Part shown: one piece after another, positions 1 to 25,902 of the stretch
Layout: the number at the start of each line of letters is the position of its first letter
How positions within the stretch are numbered: the first letter of the stretch is position 1
From: Chitinivibrionales bacterium
Lineage (GTDB): Bacteria; Fibrobacterota; Chitinivibrionia; Chitinivibrionales; JANQEN01
Reading direction: 5' to 3'
Assembly: GCA_028278335.1 (NCBI GenBank)
Contig: JANQEN010000206.1
Coordinates: forward strand, 1-64,000
Length of the DNA: 64,000 nucleotides
Position numbers and translations under genes: made by a program
Notes under the pieces: generated by a model
The model's input: only the letters and a program-made list of their open reading frames with translations
Databases searched by the model: none
Told to the model about the DNA's origin: nothing

Positions 1-161
1 GGCTTTTTTGGCCATATCACCTTGTAGATATGCCCTTCAAAACCTTCAAGTCTTACTAAATCATAATCTTGCACTTCTGCATCTACTCCTACTGCATAAT
101 CTGGGTTTATAATTACAGTATGATATACGCGAGAATCCAAAGGGGGGATCAGCAAGATCAC
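1..161 (-). CDS. Possible 5' end of an unidentified protein running off the left edge
   Basis: On the minus strand an open frame runs from a GTG at 161 to the window edge (about 53 codons, no stop). It reads VILLIPPLDSRVYHTV and later DAEVQDYDLVRLEGFEG, which looks like real protein rather than noise. An AAAGG lies about 7 nt before the GTG. The frame stays open a little further upstream to a TAA inside the structured RNA, but there is no ATG. I do not recognise the family and see no catalytic motif in the visible part. The proposed start overlaps the 5' end of the structured RNA on the other strand. A chance open frame of this length is possible, so confidence is low. Confidence 0.3.
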   Translation of the reverse strand, partial: MILLIPPLDSRVYHTVIINPDYAVGVDAEVQDYDLVRLEGFEGHIYKVIWPKK

Positions 162-282
162 CTGAGAGCCTTTGTTATCTGCTTGCCCATGAAATTAGGT
201 TCACCGAATAGGTGAAACTAATTTTGTGGATGCAAGCAGTTAAAAGGCACGAGGGAAGCTTGCTGTAGGGGGATTTCCCCCT
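142..282 (+). ncRNA. Structured RNA element, copy 1 (family unknown)
   Basis: About 140 nt that fold into a closing stem (150-156 with 259-265), an internal bubble carrying a short helix (168-173 with 243-248), and a long terminal hairpin: 179-186 with 232-239, 187-198 with 218-229 (two G-U pairs), a G-A mismatch at 199/217, then 200-205 with 211-216 around a five-base loop. A second copy lies at 25646-25786 on the other strand. Several stems carry compensatory changes between the copies, while the bubble strands are nearly identical. Two wobble pairs here and one in copy 2 are G-U only if RNA is read in this direction, which sets the strand. A 5-bp G/C hairpin (268-281) ends the element without a U-tract. 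The silhouette recalls 6S RNA, but I see no diagnostic 6S sequence. Confidence 0.6.
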
Positions 283-332
283 GATTAAAATTTAAAACAT
301 ATAATGCTATCACAGAAAAATAGAATTGCTAT

Positions 333-403: not shown

Positions 404-1159
404 ATGGCTAGGAAAACATTCATTGCAGGCAACTGGAAAATGAATACTACGATTGAAGATGCTGTCGCGCTTGCAAAGGGAGTGGTTGAAGCTGTAGGTT
501 CTCAGGATGCTGTTGATGTGGCGATCTGTCCCCCCTATGTTAGCCTTGCCGCGGTAAAGGACGTTGTTAAAGACTCTAATGTAAAACTTGGTGCCCAGGA
601 TGTGCATTGGGAAAAAATGGGAGCCTTTACTGGTAAGGTTTGTTGCGGCATGCTTAAGAGCGTTGGCGTGACCTATGTAATTATTGGACACTCGGAACAG
701 CGTACCTACTTTCATGAAACAGATAGCACCGTAAATAAAAAGATACAGGCTGCCTTAAAAGCAGGACTCTTGCCAATTGTTTGCATTGGTGAGACTTTAG
801 ATGAGCGTAAAAGTGGTAAAATGGAAGCGGTTGTCGAGACGCAGACCCGCGGGGCCTTTGAAGGGATCTCCCGTGAAGATGCTCTGAAGTGCACCATCGC
901 CTATGAGCCAGTATGGGCCATTGGCACTGGTGAGACTGCGACTCCAGAGCAAGCTAATGAGGCGCACGTTTTTGTAAGGAAGATTTTGGCTGATCTCTAT
1001 GATGAGGAAAGTGCTCAGAGCATGCGTATTCAATACGGCGGCAGTATGAAGCCAGGGAATGCTAAGGAGTTACTTAGCCAGAGTGATGTTGATGGTGGAT
1101 TAATCGGCGGTGCAGCCCTTAAGCCTGAGCTTTTTGAGGGTATTGTTAATCCCAAATAA
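404..1159 (+). CDS. tpiA: Triosephosphate isomerase
   Basis: Interconverts dihydroxyacetone phosphate and glyceraldehyde 3-phosphate in cytoplasmic glycolysis/gluconeogenesis. The 251-residue length is the family norm. The N-terminal GNWKMN carries the substrate-binding Asn and Lys, IIGHSEQR carries the electrophilic His, and YEPVWAIGTG carries the catalytic Glu and the start of the mobile loop 6. The late phosphate-binding segments YGGS and GLIGGAAL are also present. A good Shine-Dalgarno (GGAG) precedes the ATG. It is followed after 21 nt by secG, the tpiA-secG pairing seen in many bacteria, so the two are probably cotranscribed. Confidence 0.97.
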   Translation: MARKTFIAGNWKMNTTIEDAVALAKGVVEAVGSQDAVDVAICPPYVSLAAVKDVVKDSNVKLGAQDVHWEKMGAFTGKVCCGMLKSVGVTYVIIGHSEQRTYFHETDSTVNKKIQAALKAGLLPIVCIGETLDERKSGKMEAVVETQTRGAFEGISREDALKCTIAYEPVWAIGTGETATPEQANEAHVFVRKILADLYDEESAQSMRIQYGGSMKPGNAKELLSQSDVDGGLIGGAALKPELFEGIVNPK

Positions 1160-17442: not shown

Positions 17443-20400
17443 CTATCGCAGCGTCACGATCTTTTTAACCGTGGCAAAATCATCGGCAATGAGCCGACAG
17501 AAATAGGTCCCCGACGGAACCAAACGACCGGCATTGCTTTTGCCATGCCAGATAATTGAGTAGAATCCAGGTTTCTGTTTTTTATGAACAAGGTCACGAA
17601 CTAGGCGACCGCGTGCATCATAGATGCGCATTGTCACGGTAAAGGGTTTGTTTTGGAGCCATCCATTGGAGTCCCATTTGTAAGGGATAACGTAGGGAAT
17701 AATTGCCCGGGGATTACAGGGATTTGGATAGGGCTGCCCTAAAGAAAAGGCTTTTGGTAAGGTATTAAGAAAGTCTTTGTTTGCAGTGACAAAGAGTGTA
17801 AAGAACTGTTCCTGATCCGTTGGAGAAATAGCAAGCACGCTATTGGGCGTATAGGCAATAAAGTTCTCTTTTGTTTTAATAAAGATGTAGATGGGTGACT
17901 TCTCGTTCAACCCAGAAATTGAAAGGGATAGAGAGGTTGTCGCTGGATCGCAGGCAGAGATACCCACTTGAAAAATATTGGCCTGCTCATTCCAGTGCTG
18001 ACGAATATCACTGGCATACTCTGCAACTGATCGTTGCCATTCAGGATGGGCAAAATAGAGGCGTGGCTCGGAACCCATTCGGGGAGGCTCTGGCCTGTCC
18101 AAAAGATCGTAGCCATTTTGTGCATCCTTGGCTATGCCAAAGAGGTTGTCCTCGTCTCTATTGATATTTGAAACCAAGGACATATTAAAGATCCACTCTG
18201 TTTTGTCAACAAATTTGGTGACCCGTGTTTTAACTGCTGAGCGGCTCTGATGAATAGGAGTTCCCTTAAGCACCACCTGTTGAGGATGATCTACCAATAC
18301 CCAGTATCCTTTCCAGGGGTACAGCACGCTTTGTGCTTCCTCATAGTCTCGTGTCCGCGGATTCCACTGCCAGAGTGTATAAGGTAAATTCCATTTAATC
18401 GGATAGGGAAAGGGTGAGGCGATTTGGTTCCAGCCGTAGGCCGCTTTAGCAAGGTTTACAATAACAGAGTCTGGAGCATTGGGGTTTAGGGTAAGAGCAA
18501 GGGATAGAGGTTTTTCCTGCTTTGTCCAGTATGCCTTGTCGCCAGTAAGGGCTGCTATACCATCAGAGCGGGTATAGTACTTGTAAATACTATTGGGTTC
18601 TTTCGATTCGTCCCAGTGTAAAATCTTTCCAGCCTGTTTAAAGGAAGCTGCGCTAAAGGATTCCGAGGGGACCGAGACCATATGCCACTGACCACTGTCA
18701 GACCAGGTGTGCATGGTTGCACCGCGGATGGTAAAGGTATCGACATAGGGCGTTAAATCGATTAGACCAGCCTGATCCTCTGTATAGCAGGAAAAGACAT
18801 AATTCCCATCAGAGAGGGGATACCAATTAAAGAGACCAGTGGTATTGGTAGCCCTTTTGTCCACACTTTTGGCTAGAGGAGTCATGGTTCCATGGAAGAG
18901 GAGCGTGGTGTCAAAGTCGTCCCGACCAATCATACTATACTGTGCAGCACCAAAGCTTATCCGTTTGCTTTTAAGGGTGGTTGTGGGTGCGTCGTTTGTA
19001 TTTATGACATAGCAGGAATAGGTACCGCGCACCGCTGCACCAATGCGATCTTTGGCAATGATGGTAAATGAAACAACACCAGTGTTGCTGTTTCCTGGCA
19101 CCCCCTGTAAGAGGAACTGTTTGATTGAGTCGGCACTGGTACCATTTTTAGGGGTTACTCGTAGCCAAGGGTTGTTTGTGTTGATACTTACTATAGTCGT
19201 ATCCCCTTTGTCCGGATCAAGGATGACCACTTCACCGATGAATAGGGAGTCCTCAAAAAGGGTGTCGGGATACTGAATCGAAGCGATGCGGGGAGCATCA
19301 TTGGTGTTTTGTACGGCTATGGCAAAATAGGTAGAGTCCATGGCACCCATAGGATCGCTTGCCCTTAGGCGAATGCGGTGCGAGCCCACATCACTATTGG
19401 TGGGTTTCCATTGGAGGGTGAGAGTGTTTTGATCGACCACAAAGCCTGGAGGTGCTGCAAGAACAGTCAGTGCAATTGGATCATTGTTGACATCATGCAC
19501 ACAGGGACCAAAGGTCCAAAGAGAGTCTTCAAATAGTGTATAGTTTTGGTTAACACAAAAGCGAGGTCGCCCATTATTGATCAGAATGCTGTCTGTTTTA
19601 AAATTGCCCACATTACCAGAGCTGTCATAGGGTGTCCATGCACCATGCCAATATCCCTGTTTGTTAATGTTGGGTACGGTGAATGAGGTGTCGCGATAGG
19701 CTAATCGATAGGCATTGGTAGTATCAAAGAGAGGGTTTTTATAGGCTAGGGTAAAATAGATACCCTTTTCAGGGGCCGTGTTATTGTTGGCAATTGAAAG
19801 GGTGACTGCAACCGCACTGTCTCCTTGGTTTCTAAAAAGTGCCTGGATCGTATTAATCGGTGCATCGCCATCAGGTAGCCGAACCCTACCGCTGGACTCA
19901 TTGGTAAAGATTGACCAGTTATCTGCGTTGTCAACAACAAAGGCTGCTGTATAGGCTATAACACCGTTTGTTGGAAAGGGACCCATGGTCACGCTCGAAT
20001 CAATACTTCCCACAAACTGAAAAAGTTCACCCTCAGAAGGTGTTTTAGGCATGGCCATTGAGGATGCGCAAACCTTGACTTCCTTAGCATCGGGGCTTGT
20101 GGAGGGTGTCCAATACACTGCCGCTGTTGAGCAATTAACTGCACGCACTGTTAAGCCGGTTACTGGATTGGGCGGTGTGCCATCATCAATATAGGTGACA
20201 CCAAAGGGTACGGTCTGGTCAATTCGGATATTATAGGCGCTGCCATCACCAAAGGTGTTCTCTTCCATGATCAGCGAGAGTTTGGTCCCGATCTCAGCCC
20301 AGGACTCAATCACTTGAGCTTGGACTTCTAAAATTGTTATTCGCACAGTGTCTTGGGTTGTCCCAAAGGCAAAGGGCCAGGGTGATGCCACAAGCAGAGA

Positions 20401-23400
20401 GTCGGCCGTGCCATTGTTGACATAGAGACCCACCCGATGATCTGTGTGAATAGAGGTCGACTGGACCGGCTTGTCAAAGATAAGTTCTAACACATTGGTT
20501 GTTTCTCTATAGGATGCCGAGCGCACACCCACAATGGGTGGTATGCCCATATAGGCGATATTTGCAGCAGAGGCACTGGCTGCAGGATTGCCAAGAGTAT
20601 CTTGATACTCTAAAGTGATTGTATAGAGGGCATTGTTAACCAGATGATCATTGGGTTCGGTAGAAACGGTTGACACATTGGTATTGTTGGAGAGATCATT
20701 TCCAGAGAGTGTCGTGGTGTGGACGCCGCCCGCTTCAAACCCTGCTGAAAAGATGATACTGTGCGTACCACTGGGGTCTGCAGTCCCTCCAGTATTGACA
20801 ATACTGAGTTTGACTGTACCAGACAGTGCTGCCTCGGGCAGGGAGAAATTGAGGCCAAAGGTGCTGTCTAATGTGATATTGGCCAGCGGTGCGTTGAGGA
20901 TAGGTGGTTCTGTTTGGGTATCCTCGGTGACAAAAAACCACTGGGTGTTTGCAGCAAATCCTGGATGATAATTGCCTGAAGTGTCCATAAAGCAGGTGAT
21001 ATCAAAAAGAATGTAGTAGCCGGTTTTACTGGCCAGGGTTGAAGTCGGATTAATGGTAATGATGGTTGAGCCACTACCACTGACGCCGGGGGCATTAACC
21101 GAGATGGTTTCGTGAATACCAAGGTCTGCTGTGCGGGCAATATAGATATTTCCACTGTCAACAACCACATCTTCGGAAAAGGCAATGGTGAGGTTTGTGT
21201 TGAGCGGTACTGCGATGCTTCCTAACGCTGGAACGAGTGATACAATTGTCGGATCAATGGTGTCTTGAACCTGAATAGTCACCAGGGCAGTATCCGAATT
21301 GTCAACACCATCATTGGTAATGTAGGAGAAGAATGCCGAGCCAATCATGTCTGTCTGAGGAGTATAGGTGAATGACCCATCACTATTAAAGGAGAGTGTT
21401 CCCACAGCAACATTTTGGGTGAGGGTTGCAGAAAAAGGATCACCCTCAGGATCAGAATCATTGGCTAGAAAGCCTGGTGCTGTAATGGTCAGTGGAGTGT
21501 TTTGTGACGTGATATAGCTATCGTCTGCAACAATTGGTGCGTCGTTTACCGCAAAAACATTGATAGTAATTGCAATAGAGTCACTATCAACTAATCCATC
21601 ATTGACTCGAAAGCTTATGGTGCGGGGTATGGTTGATGGAGCGTCGCTGGGATTATAGTAGGCAATGCTACGCAGCGCTGTTTGATAGTTAGCTATCGTA
21701 GCAGAGCCGGAAAGACCCAATATACCAGTGCTGGAATTGTAGGTCCCGGTGATGCCGTTTTGGTTTACAAATACCAAGGAGTCCACATTGACCGATAAGC
21801 CTGCGGTAATTTTTATGGTTGCACCGGAACAATTACTGTTGTCCGGGTCTGACACGGTGATGCTATCATCAATAGTAACCGGAGGATTGTTTTCGTTATA
21901 GCCAAAGGAGGAGGTGTTGTTTACCAATTGGGGCTGGTCATTTATAGGGGTTACCGTAAACATTCGTGTAACCGGTTGGCTTACTGAGCTCCCATCATAC
22001 ACAGTAAAACTAACAGTCCGGGTTATAATCGACGGATTATCGCTGCTGTTTTCATAGGTTACACTTCTAAGAGCGGTCTGGTAGTTGGCCAGAGCAGAGG
22101 TGCCCGATAAGGTCAACATCCCATTGGTGCTGTCAAAACTTCCGATAATGCCATTTTGAGACGTAAAGAGAAGCCGATCCTCGGTGGGCATATTATTTGT
22201 TGTAATAGCTACCTCCGCAGATTCACACATGGCATTGTCCATGTCAGTAACGGTGATTGCATTGTCAATAACCGTGGCAGCATCATTCTCGGTATAGACA
22301 AAGGAACCTCCAGTACCGGTCAGTACTGGAGGATCATTCATGTCATCAATAATGATGGAAAAGGCCTCCTCATAGTACAGTGTCCCCACACCATTATCAG
22401 TTGTACGCACCCGTATTGACATTGAGGGGTTGGTCTCGAAGTCAAAGATGGCATTGGAAAAGAGGGTATCACCGTTTATGGCAAAGGATGCATTATCTGT
22501 GCTTCCCGTGCCGGAGACTAGCGTGTAGGTGTGTTGATCACTACCATTGGGATCAGTTGTTGAGAAGAATCCGATAAAAGTGCCTATCGCCTGATTTTCA
22601 TTGATGACGTCGTTGCTGAGGTTTATATCGGTTGGCACATCATTAAAGGCCCAGTTTGTGTTACCCCCAGCATCAACACAATTTACCGTGGGCACACCCT
22701 GTGATCCCTGAGATGCATCGCAGTTGCCAATTTTGGCATAGTCAGCACTAAGAGTTCCTGAGATATCTAAATACCAAGGATTGGCAGGGTTCATATTGAG
22801 TAAGTTGCCACTTTGCCCAGAGAAAGAAGCATTACCGCCAACCGTGATAGTTGTTAAGGCGTGATTTAAGAGGGTTGTACTATCGCCGTTGGTGAGTGTT
22901 AGATTATTGGCAACTTGCATATTAAATGAGTTTAAATCAAATGTTCCAGCAGTTTGGGTAAAGGCTTCGGTTTGCAGAGAATCATTTAGAATACGTAACG
23001 TGCCTGAACCTGAATGGAGAAGGGGGGGGAATTTCTCATTGTTAGGCAGTTTTAAATCTTGCGCACCGGAGCCAGTGAATTCCATCACTGCGGTCCCGGC
23101 ATAGAGGGTGTCAACGTCGGTGAAGTCAGCGCATCCACTGATCCGCAAGGAGCAGGCATTAAAATCAAAGTTGGACATCATGCCATAATACAACTCGTCA
23201 ACAGCGTGGACACTATTCCCAAAATCCAAGGTGTCGTATTCGACAATGAGCGTGTCTGCCATAAAGTCATCGGCTAAGGTAAAATAGGCAGTGCTACCAC
23301 TTCCACCAAAGGTGACCTTATGAAAAGCAGATCCCCCGGAGGTGATCGTGTGGTATCCGGTTGAGGTGTCAAATTCAACTTTACCGTTGTTGTGGTTAAA

Positions 23401-25422
23401 GGTGCCGCTATTGTTAAAGCTGCCCTTGATAAACATGATGTTGTTGGTGGGAGCTGTAAAGGTTGCCCCTGTTTGAATGGTCAGGCTTTTCATCATGAGT
23501 GTGGCACTGTCCAAGGCGAGAACAGTGGCGCCGGTGTTGACCGTTACATCAGGAAAGTGAAAGGAGCATGGCTTGAAGGGTTGCGTGCCAGTGCCGGCAA
23601 AGGTAAGGGCGCCGCTTTCTCGGCTCATAGTGCCGATCGCCTTAAAATCTGCCGTGTCTGTGACGTAGAGGTGGGTGTTCCCAAAGTTAAGGGTTCCGCC
23701 AGAGAGCCAAATTTGCTCAACCGTATCCTTTGCCCCGTAATTGCCAAGGAAGAGTGTGCCACTACCAACGCGTAGCTCCTCTGCTCGAAAGGCTTGGTCC
23801 TTAATAAAGGTTTGTCCGGTCCCAATCTGAAAAAGGGTGGGGAAGAGTTCGCCAGTCTTGGGAATAAAGACATTTTTGGTAGGACTGTTAAAGAGTATAG
23901 TACCATCATTGGTAATAAGCTCCACCGCACCGGAAAAATCAGCGCTATCGTAAATGGTTAGGGTTCTGTTGGCAAAACAGAACAGGCCCGGCGTGTTGAC
24001 AAAGTAGATCGATGAGATCGCCGTATTGATGGTAAGCGTGCAGGAGGCGTTTGAAACAACTCCATCAAAGATCACCGTGTCCATGTCGTCGGGTATACCA
24101 TCGGGATACCAGTTGACATCCCGATACCACAGGTTGTCACCGAAGCTATTCTCCCAGGTTTTTCCTGCCGGATACATGACCGTATTTTCATAGGCACCCA
24201 GAGAGGGGCTTGCACTTCTGCCAATACCCTCTATGTCAACTGTAGGAATAAGACCCCCGGACATGCCCATACCATAACAGGGGCTCCCGCTTTGTAATTT
24301 CAGGCTGTCATCGGGGGTTCCTAACATGTTATCAAAGCCGTCTGCATCAAAGAAGAGGGGAAAGGTGTCGAGATTATTTCCATTGTTAATACCAAAGGCA
24401 TTGCCGCCAACCCAGGAGGCGCTACTGCCGCAGCCCTCAATATCACTGTATTGGATGCTGGGGTTGCTTGAGCCCTCGTTGCGGATCTCGGGATTACTGA
24501 CAATGGCCCTGTTAGACCAAAGAATGGTGTTTCGTATATCAGGAAATCCCGCAGTGGTGTTTTGATTAAAGAGGGCCCCACCAAGCATGGCTTCATTGCC
24601 TACAAAGGTGCAGTTGTAAATGTGATTTGATGCTGCACTCATGCGCATGACATAGGTGCCACCACCCTCTTTGGCTTTATTGCCCACCACTATAGAGTTT
24701 ATAAGCATGGAGGAGTCGTTTTCAAACAGAATACCCCCACCCATACTATCGGAGACATTACCGTAGATTCTACAGTTACGTATGGTCGCTTTCATGTTTT
24801 TACAAAAGATGCCCCCGCCTCGTTTTTTACTGTAATTTTTTCGAATAATACAGTTTGTTAAGGTGTCACCCTTAAAGAGTGAACCCATATACACACCACC
24901 ACCATAATCAAAATTACTACCGCCATTGGCAAAACCACCCTCTATAATAAAGCCGTCCATAATAGCGCGCTCTACATTGTAGAACTTTACAACATGAAAG
25001 GAATTGTCCGAGCTATCACCAATGGAGCCAATATCACCACTGAGCACGGTTGGGAACTGCTTGGGATTTCGTGCACCACCTGTTGTTGGGTAGCCACCTA
25101 ATATTTTCATCCAACTCTTAACCGTAAAGGAGGAATCCCGGGCATTGTCGCTGGTTGGCTTGTATACACCCTGGGCCACATGGATTATATCGGTGGAGTT
25201 GCAGGCATCAAAGGCATCGTGCAATTGATTAAAGGCATTGGGCCAGTCCGCACCGGTGTTGCCGCCTCCTGCAGCAATGTCGACATACCAGTCGGTTTGG
25301 GAAAATCCCCCGGTTATCCAACCAATACCAAGCACCATAAGCACTAAAAAAACTCCCCACCGTTGGACAGGGACTGCACCACAGATTTTGCTTCTCTTCA
25401 TCATTATTTTTGATCTTTCCAT
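17443..25422 (-). CDS. Giant surface protein: beta-helix, cadherin/VCBS-like repeats, T9SS/FlgD-like C-terminus
   Basis: About 2,660 residues. The N-terminal signal peptide leads into a right-handed beta-helix of the polymorphic outer-membrane type (repeats such as GGGVYMGS, GGGIFCKN, GGGILFEN to about residue 430). A region rich in short beta-strands follows. From about 990 come cadherin/VCBS-type repeats (DINLSNDVINENQAIGTF, then SFVYTEN, SFGYNEN, SYITSQN with DSDPEGD). An SbsA-like Ig domain follows (FSEDVVVDSGNIYI), then Ig-like domains with LFEDSLF. The last ~90 residues match a FlgD/T9SS type A sorting domain (QPYPNPCNPRAIIPYVIPY, YDARGRLVRDL, SGTYFCRL). It is probably secreted and outer-membrane anchored. 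I prefer ATG 25422; GTG 25446 and ATG 25404 are alternatives. Confidence 0.82.
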   Translation of the reverse strand: MERSKIMMKRSKICGAVPVQRWGVFLVLMVLGIGWITGGFSQTDWYVDIAAGGGNTGADWPNAFNQLHDAFDACNSTDIIHVAQGVYKPTSDNARDSSFTVKSWMKILGGYPTTGGARNPKQFPTVLSGDIGSIGDSSDNSFHVVKFYNVERAIMDGFIIEGGFANGGSNFDYGGGVYMGSLFKGDTLTNCIIRKNYSKKRGGGIFCKNMKATIRNCRIYGNVSDSMGGGILFENDSSMLINSIVVGNKAKEGGGTYVMRMSAASNHIYNCTFVGNEAMLGGALFNQNTTAGFPDIRNTILWSNRAIVSNPEIRNEGSSNPSIQYSDIEGCGSSASWVGGNAFGINNGNNLDTFPLFFDADGFDNMLGTPDDSLKLQSGSPCYGMGMSGGLIPTVDIEGIGRSASPSLGAYENTVMYPAGKTWENSFGDNLWYRDVNWYPDGIPDDMDTVIFDGVVSNASCTLTINTAISSIYFVNTPGLFCFANRTLTIYDSADFSGAVELITNDGTILFNSPTKNVFIPKTGELFPTLFQIGTGQTFIKDQAFRAEELRVGSGTLFLGNYGAKDTVEQIWLSGGTLNFGNTHLYVTDTADFKAIGTMSRESGALTFAGTGTQPFKPCSFHFPDVTVNTGATVLALDSATLMMKSLTIQTGATFTAPTNNIMFIKGSFNNSGTFNHNNGKVEFDTSTGYHTITSGGSAFHKVTFGGSGSTAYFTLADDFMADTLIVEYDTLDFGNSVHAVDELYYGMMSNFDFNACSLRISGCADFTDVDTLYAGTAVMEFTGSGAQDLKLPNNEKFPPLLHSGSGTLRILNDSLQTEAFTQTAGTFDLNSFNMQVANNLTLTNGDSTTLLNHALTTITVGGNASFSGQSGNLLNMNPANPWYLDISGTLSADYAKIGNCDASQGSQGVPTVNCVDAGGNTNWAFNDVPTDINLSNDVINENQAIGTFIGFFSTTDPNGSDQHTYTLVSGTGSTDNASFAINGDTLFSNAIFDFETNPSMSIRVRTTDNGVGTLYYEEAFSIIIDDMNDPPVLTGTGGSFVYTENDAATVIDNAITVTDMDNAMCESAEVAITTNNMPTEDRLLFTSQNGIIGSFDSTNGMLTLSGTSALANYQTALRSVTYENSSDNPSIITRTVSFTVYDGSSVSQPVTRMFTVTPINDQPQLVNNTSSFGYNENNPPVTIDDSITVSDPDNSNCSGATIKITAGLSVNVDSLVFVNQNGITGTYNSSTGILGLSGSATIANYQTALRSIAYYNPSDAPSTIPRTISFRVNDGLVDSDSIAITINVFAVNDAPIVADDSYITSQNTPLTITAPGFLANDSDPEGDPFSATLTQNVAVGTLSFNSDGSFTYTPQTDMIGSAFFSYITNDGVDNSDTALVTIQVQDTIDPTIVSLVPALGSIAVPLNTNLTIAFSEDVVVDSGNIYIARTADLGIHETISVNAPGVSGSGSTIITINPTSTLASKTGYYILFDITCFMDTSGNYHPGFAANTQWFFVTEDTQTEPPILNAPLANITLDSTFGLNFSLPEAALSGTVKLSIVNTGGTADPSGTHSIIFSAGFEAGGVHTTTLSGNDLSNNTNVSTVSTEPNDHLVNNALYTITLEYQDTLGNPAASASAANIAYMGIPPIVGVRSASYRETTNVLELIFDKPVQSTSIHTDHRVGLYVNNGTADSLLVASPWPFAFGTTQDTVRITILEVQAQVIESWAEIGTKLSLIMEENTFGDGSAYNIRIDQTVPFGVTYIDDGTPPNPVTGLTVRAVNCSTAAVYWTPSTSPDAKEVKVCASSMAMPKTPSEGELFQFVGSIDSSVTMGPFPTNGVIAYTAAFVVDNADNWSIFTNESSGRVRLPDGDAPINTIQALFRNQGDSAVAVTLSIANNNTAPEKGIYFTLAYKNPLFDTTNAYRLAYRDTSFTVPNINKQGYWHGAWTPYDSSGNVGNFKTDSILINNGRPRFCVNQNYTLFEDSLWTFGPCVHDVNNDPIALTVLAAPPGFVVDQNTLTLQWKPTNSDVGSHRIRLRASDPMGAMDSTYFAIAVQNTNDAPRIASIQYPDTLFEDSLFIGEVVILDPDKGDTTIVSINTNNPWLRVTPKNGTSADSIKQFLLQGVPGNSNTGVVSFTIIAKDRIGAAVRGTYSCYVINTNDAPTTTLKSKRISFGAAQYSMIGRDDFDTTLLFHGTMTPLAKSVDKRATNTTGLFNWYPLSDGNYVFSCYTEDQAGLIDLTPYVDTFTIRGATMHTWSDSGQWHMVSVPSESFSAASFKQAGKILHWDESKEPNSIYKYYTRSDGIAALTGDKAYWTKQEKPLSLALTLNPNAPDSVIVNLAKAAYGWNQIASPFPYPIKWNLPYTLWQWNPRTRDYEEAQSVLYPWKGYWVLVDHPQQVVLKGTPIHQSRSAVKTRVTKFVDKTEWIFNMSLVSNINRDEDNLFGIAKDAQNGYDLLDRPEPPRMGSEPRLYFAHPEWQRSVAEYASDIRQHWNEQANIFQVGISACDPATTSLSLSISGLNEKSPIYIFIKTKENFIAYTPNSVLAISPTDQEQFFTLFVTANKDFLNTLPKAFSLGQPYPNPCNPRAIIPYVIPYKWDSNGWLQNKPFTVTMRIYDARGRLVRDLVHKKQKPGFYSIIWHGKSNAGRLVPSGTYFCRLIADDFATVKKIVTLR

Positions 25423-25482
25423 GGAACCAAAGCCTCTTTGCCTCACTAGATTGAATTCTATATATTAGACAGTAACTTGCTT

Positions 25483-25511: not shown

Positions 25512-25645
25512 CATGGGTTAATCGCTTAAGTTGTTAAATTCGTCAGTTTGAAAATTACTTCTATTATAGGACTATTTTACGGTTTTTTCTGTGATCCGAG
25601 TCACAGAGGCTTTTATATAAAAGATTATTTGTTTTTTAATGATCC

Positions 25646-25786
25646 GGGGGGAAGCCCCCCACTGTGAGCTTCCCTCGTCTCTTTTAACTGCTTGCATCCA
25701 CAAAATCAGTTCCACCTAGACGGTGGACCTGCTCTTGTGGGCAAGCAGATAACAAAGATTCTCAGGTGATCTCACAGATTCCCCCT
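25646..25786 (-). ncRNA. Structured RNA element, copy 2 (family unknown)
   Basis: Counterpart of the element at 142-282, on the opposite strand. Closing stem 25777-25771 with 25668-25662, the same bubble sequences (ATCACCTGAGA, TTTGTTAT, ACGAGGGAAG), the same CTGCTTGC/GCAAGCAG helix, and a long terminal hairpin with the same G-A mismatch and five-base loop. Relative to copy 1 the closing stem has three compensatory pair exchanges; the bubble helix has one (C-G to U-A) and the apical hairpin two (U-A to C-G). A 6-bp G/C hairpin (25646-25660) follows at the 3' end. It sits in a 580-nt gap between the giant surface gene and metH, with no promoter I could name. Outside the promoter, this element and the metH terminator, I see nothing else in the gap. 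Confidence 0.6.
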
Positions 25787-25902
25787 GTAACTATCTTGAA
25801 CTGAGAGTGTTAATGTTCTTTCGAAAAAGGGGAAAAAATAGATTAAATCCTGCTCAGTTTTAATCCTTGTAGTATTATTGGGAATTATAGAATTGGATGG
25901 AT

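Follow-up and report, generated by a model that had tools for sequence, protein, structure and literature searches.

The 64,000-nt stretch of a Chitinivibrionales bacterium genome that we analyzed (GCA_028278335.1, contig JANQEN010000206.1, positions 1-64,000 of the forward strand; hereafter the window) carries two copies of a structured repeat of ~145 bp, which we term family A and which is present in ~73 full-length copies on both strands of the 6.3-Mb genome. We consider it somewhat better than an even bet that family A is a large, elaborated, non-autonomous REPIN-like mobile repeat, in which the single-stranded fold is the selected trait. The copies are scattered, fall into subfamilies, have free but compensated stems, were amplified in a lineage-specific manner and sit at gene ends, a pattern of the REPIN type. 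According to this interpretation, family A would be copied between intergenic sites by an enzyme encoded elsewhere, and the copying machinery would recognize the fold of one strand, as either single-stranded DNA or RNA; since the fold would be what is recognized, drift in stem sequence would be tolerated as long as complementarity is kept. Resident copies may survive at gene ends either as harmless passengers or as useful RNA hairpins or terminators.

Copy 1 is located upstream of tpiA (404-1159, plus strand) at positions 142-282 of the plus strand, and copy 2 is located at positions 25646-25786 of the minus strand, between a metH-like gene and the gene for a 2667-aa surface protein (predicted at 17443-25446; it contains tandem-95 repeats, and its C-terminus is weakly T9SS-type or FlgD-like). 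A first-pass annotation had described the two as paired, inverted elements. Both were recovered by a covariance model built from 28 aligned family A copies, whose consensus fold comprises 45 pairs (R1; 140-285, plus strand, 166 bits; 25643-25787, minus strand, 159 bits), and both out-folded their dinucleotide shuffles (z = -7.6 for copy 1 and -6.4 for copy 2; 0 of 200 shuffles each). While the elements themselves are real, their paired and inverted arrangement is an accident of the window, which happens to hold two of the ~73 scattered copies. The R1 search gave the genome-wide copy number, weaker matches on the opposite strand being shadows of the palindrome; an initial search of the same genome using copy 1 as the query had returned 40 matches, which is the number that was scored.

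Reading copy 1 in the 5' to 3' direction, a G-tract (142-147), kept in nearly all copies, is followed by the 5' strand of the closing stem P1 (CAGCAAG, 150-156) and by the 5' side of the internal loops (ATCACCTGAGAGC, 157-169), whose AGATC motif is present in 72 of the 74 model matches. The apical hairpin (199-217) contains a G.A mismatch, a 6-bp helix and a GNNNA pentaloop (GAATA, 206-210); the 3' strand of P1 (CTTGCTG, 259-265) comes after a GGGAAG loop strand, and a 3' hairpin (AGGGGG-ATTT-CCCCCT, helix 5, 267-282) closes the element. In copy 2, on the minus strand, the P1 strands are CTGTGAG (25771-25777) and CTCACAG (25662-25668), the latter compensating the changes in the former, and the 3' hairpin is GGGGGG-CTT-CCCCCC (25646-25660). 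Thus, the sequence comparison bore out the original observation that the unpaired parts of the two elements are alike and the paired parts compensated, including three compensated pairs in the 7-bp closing stem. The G.A mismatch, also singled out at that stage, is present in 26 of the 28 aligned copies, the other two having A.A.

The family A plan reads, from 5' to 3': G-tract, P1 of 7 bp, the loop AUCA opposite GAA, short helices, GTTAT opposite GTTAA, a long stem, the G.A mismatch, the 6-bp tip, the return strand and a G5-6/C5-6 hairpin. The GNNNA pentaloop was found at the tip of 27 of the 28 copies. Some copies have an added hairpin with a GNRA tetraloop (GCTCG-GTGA-CGAGC) near the 3' base, some have an extra arm at the tip, and five (L103, L106, L109, L110 and L111) have an insert of ~46 nt (CCGCGAAGCAGAGGCGAG..) that interrupts the apical stem at an identical position, constituting a nested variant.

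To measure covariation we used a MAFFT alignment that was not fitted to any model, with 500 shuffles and slid pairing partners as controls. Double changes were seen in 27 of the 45 consensus pairs, compared to 10.5 in the shuffles (0 of 500 reached the observed value), and 96% of the alignment cells were paired, compared to 40-53% when the partners were slid; the sliding abolished the excess of double changes as well. All cells of P1 were paired, with double changes in 5 of its 7 pairs, and 95% of the cells of the 3' hairpin were paired. Between nearest-neighbor copies, 25 double changes preserved a pair and 5 broke one. Across 72 copies, read on the strand that the first-pass annotation had chosen, there were 158 G-U cells and 19 A-C cells, such that its choice of strand, made from G-U pairs in two elements, holds for the whole family. 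In the 28-copy alignment the ratio of G-U to A-C was 59:3 for the forward strand and 22:22 for the best fold of the reverse strand itself, and family B, which differs in sequence, displayed the same strand bias (27:3). Family D, used as a hairpin control in the same test, made a weak one, its consensus fold containing few pairs. Since G-U pairs far exceed A-C pairs on one strand only, the fold belongs to that strand; together with the covariation, this supports the earlier proposal of selection on a strand-specific fold. The G-U bias by itself does not separate RNA from single-stranded DNA as the folding strand. Of the identities put forward at the outset, an undescribed class and a mobile RNA-linked element were good guesses, the acting molecule being either RNA or single-stranded DNA.

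The compensation could in principle be mutational instead of selected, if family A were a DNA palindrome in which templated repair (quasi-palindrome correction) keeps the two arms matched. A family B copy (L141:3721-3867) has a long inner stem that is a perfect palindrome of >30 bp, imperfect in its sister copies, as though one arm had served as the template for rewriting the other. As a general explanation we regard arm correction as improbable: the internal loops and the G.A mismatch were kept and not erased, and because correction treats both strands alike it could not produce an excess of 158 G-U over 19 A-C.

Next, we examined where the copies lie. By mechanical ORF calls, on which the placement of gene ends also relies, family A copies are intergenic. 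A convergent gene on the 3' side had its stop codon 18-49 nt from the family A 3' end in 24 of 31 cases, compared to 5 of 42 cases in which a same-strand stop fell <50 nt from the 5' end (p = 2e-8). No Pfam family recurred among the neighboring genes (87 neighbors, 25 Pfam families shown), and we accordingly rejected a cis-regulator of one gene type. Some copies are near contig ends, where the assembly is broken by family D, a separate palindromic MITE-like repeat of ~170 bp; positions 1-114 of the window are part of one such repeat, with ends AACCCAGATTATGCA, and at least 20 copies were present in the DNA examined, frequently at contig ends and adjoining family A copies. At the tpiA loci of 29 relatives no element was found nearby. 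Copy 1 was therefore probably gained in this lineage, the alternative being a loss in all 29 relatives.

On their left side the copies have a mildly A-rich flank, and on their right side the flank is T-rich at +5 to +9. Inspection by eye of 74 flank pairs revealed no target-site duplication, and no allelic empty site was seen; both observations count against a mobile repeat. The missing duplication and the T-rich right flank, along with a structured RNA strand and a fixed 3' hairpin, would also suit a retro-mobile, SINE-like RNA that is converted to DNA by a reverse transcriptase acting in trans and then inserted. Family A would in that case exemplify a bacterial SINE-like class of ~145-nt structured RNAs, spread through an RNA intermediate into lineage-specific families across the whole order. 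We give both the mechanism and the class little credence, as REP-type DNA mobility accounts for the same facts and we know of no precedent in bacteria for an RNA-copied element of this type.

The same genome also holds at least two further families, B (~13 copies) and E (~17 copies), and one type C copy. Families B and C have the loop AUCC opposite UUA in place of AUCA opposite GAA. Ahead of the G-tract, several B and E copies have in common a leader, possibly a promoter, that contains a TATAAT-like box and ACACATGGAGCATTAAA. One family E repeat (L138:1690-1880) shares the leader of family B and has a possible long-range pairing, TGTACC with GGTACA. The type C copy and its partner in the sister genus, which is represented by one genome that is 68% complete, are 90% identical (L126:1513-1655 and L127:1501-1641), a degree of conservation unusual for a non-coding repeat; the FN3-domain gene beside them has only 65% DNA identity between the two genera. 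Could these repeats then be a multicopy structured non-coding RNA family, in which small RNA genes or 3'-UTR modules act as transcripts and the spreading is secondary? The leader, the type C conservation, the strand-specific G-U bias with its conserved loops and the GNRA hairpin variants all speak for such a family. On the other side, family A copies have no common upstream sequence beyond other repeats, no common neighbor gene, and a lineage-specific presence, leaving this a minority possibility, albeit the foremost of the alternatives that we weighed.

We then looked for related sequences elsewhere. At an E-value of 1e-4, the family A model matched only its own genome among 168 genomes of the phylum. 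Detection of relatives needed a broader covariance model made from families A, B and C (R2), which identified members in several further families of the order, with low scores of 20-40 bits in assemblies that are drafts in many contigs; our order-wide claim rests not on these scores but on a common frame that we recognized by reading the sequences. This frame consists of a G-tract, a variable but complementary P1, an internal loop of the GATC(R)CC/GGAAGC type and a terminal G5/C5 hairpin; in G008, the loop GATC(A/G)CC...GGAAGC adjoining P1 is the family A loop. The 3' hairpin pattern of the relatives, CAGGGGG..CCCCCACC, had 155 matches in genome G030, 26 in G008, 12 in G002 and 8 in G005, whereas the reversed pattern matched 0 to 1 times in these genomes. 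Among 57 copies of the relatives, there were 22 distinct P1 strand sequences, and an exact upstream partner was present in 36; in 25 the exact partner came directly after a GGGGT tag, compared to a mean of 0.17 (maximum 2) with the strands swapped. Judged by sequence, the repeat sets in other genomes of the order are specific to their lineages.

Searching Rfam at gathering and permissive thresholds yielded only chance or hairpin-like matches, and no match to a known family. A divergent 6S pair, suggested initially by the shape, shares with 6S RNA (RF00013) a long, rod-like hairpin with an open internal loop; given that no 6S covariance match appeared at any threshold tried (up to E = 10), that there are ~73 copies in a lineage-specific distribution and that relatives have no element beside tpiA, we dismiss this identity almost entirely. 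HEARO/omega RNA of IscB or TnpB was likewise rejected: Rfam gave no match, and none of the 25 Pfam families shown for the 87 neighbors is a nuclease family. A degenerate pattern search of 84,980 species genomes plus viral contigs, and BLAST against phage and plasmid sequences, found no match. Our literature search turned up work on REPs and REPINs and no description of this repeat class.

With respect to a mobilizing enzyme, Y1 transposase genes are present in the genome. We read a subset of them, the RAYT-type loci of this genome and of relatives, and wherever flanking repeats were clear they were of a different kind; the model search placed no element of the present kind beside the RAYT-type genes read. 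For example, the RAYT-type gene at L143:5215-5733 is bordered by multiple copies of a REP of its own (TGCCCCGACCGTGAGGGAGGGA) and is near a family B copy that is apparently unrelated. As the RAYT-type genes that we read have flanking repeats of their own, we rejected RAYT as the mobilizer on the present evidence and assign no enzyme.

Of the known systems closest to family A, REPINs/BIMEs (RAYT-mobilized REP doublets; PMC3116915) are the ones to which the reading that we favor refers. Like them, family A is short, intergenic, high-copy, non-autonomous and palindromic, with a G/C-rich terminal hairpin and with compensatory changes such as are reported in the REPIN hairpin spacer; in REPINs, a hairpin formed by a single strand is regarded as the mobile unit (PMC3116915). 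Unlike them, family A measures 145 bp, conserves internal loops and a pentaloop, and has no cognate RAYT found, the RAYTs of the genome carrying other REPs. It also has only one terminal hairpin, at the 3' end, and the lack of a REP-type hairpin of its own at the 5' end is a point against the REPIN reading; in relatives, several copies show an additional G/C hairpin, in inverted orientation, on the upstream side. Family A resembles GTAG- and CGTC-tagged REPs (PMC3733652) in lying beside gene 3' ends, where REPs are reported to lie close (PMC3733652), in its RNA-suggestive G-T pairs and in its lineage-tied families. Those REPs are single hairpins of 20-40 bp with a GTAG or CGTC tag, whereas in the present repeats the bases preceding the hairpin belong to a larger fold and the tag varies (GTAG, GTGG, GCGG or ATGG; CCAG in relatives); family A does share with REPs at large the character of a high-copy, dispersed, extragenic palindromic repeat. 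MITEs are likewise non-autonomous dispersed repeats with inverted ends, which in family A amount to the G-tract and P1 only; family A differs from them in the absence of a visible target duplication and in its strand-specific fold, and the MITE-like family D of the same genome has plain terminal inverted repeats. The conserved unpaired AGATC, AAGCT, GNNNA and GTTAT/GTTAA motifs and the optional GNRA hairpins exceed what a REPIN needs, which hints at a role as RNA; such a role would also be compatible with the extra internal loops and pentaloop, with the GNRA variants and with the possible promoter seen in families B and E.

Interspersed repeats of bacteria are usually simple hairpins. What we describe looks like an unrecorded and unusually elaborate type of small bacterial mobile repeat, an order-wide set that keeps a complex, strand-specific fold while its stems change freely, and of which different genomes amplified different versions (up to ~155 matches to one hairpin pattern). 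It offers a natural series for asking which features of a single-stranded fold are read by copying machinery, and it also bears on how REP-like repeats acquire internal structure and on whether selection at the RNA level maintains mobile repeats at gene ends.
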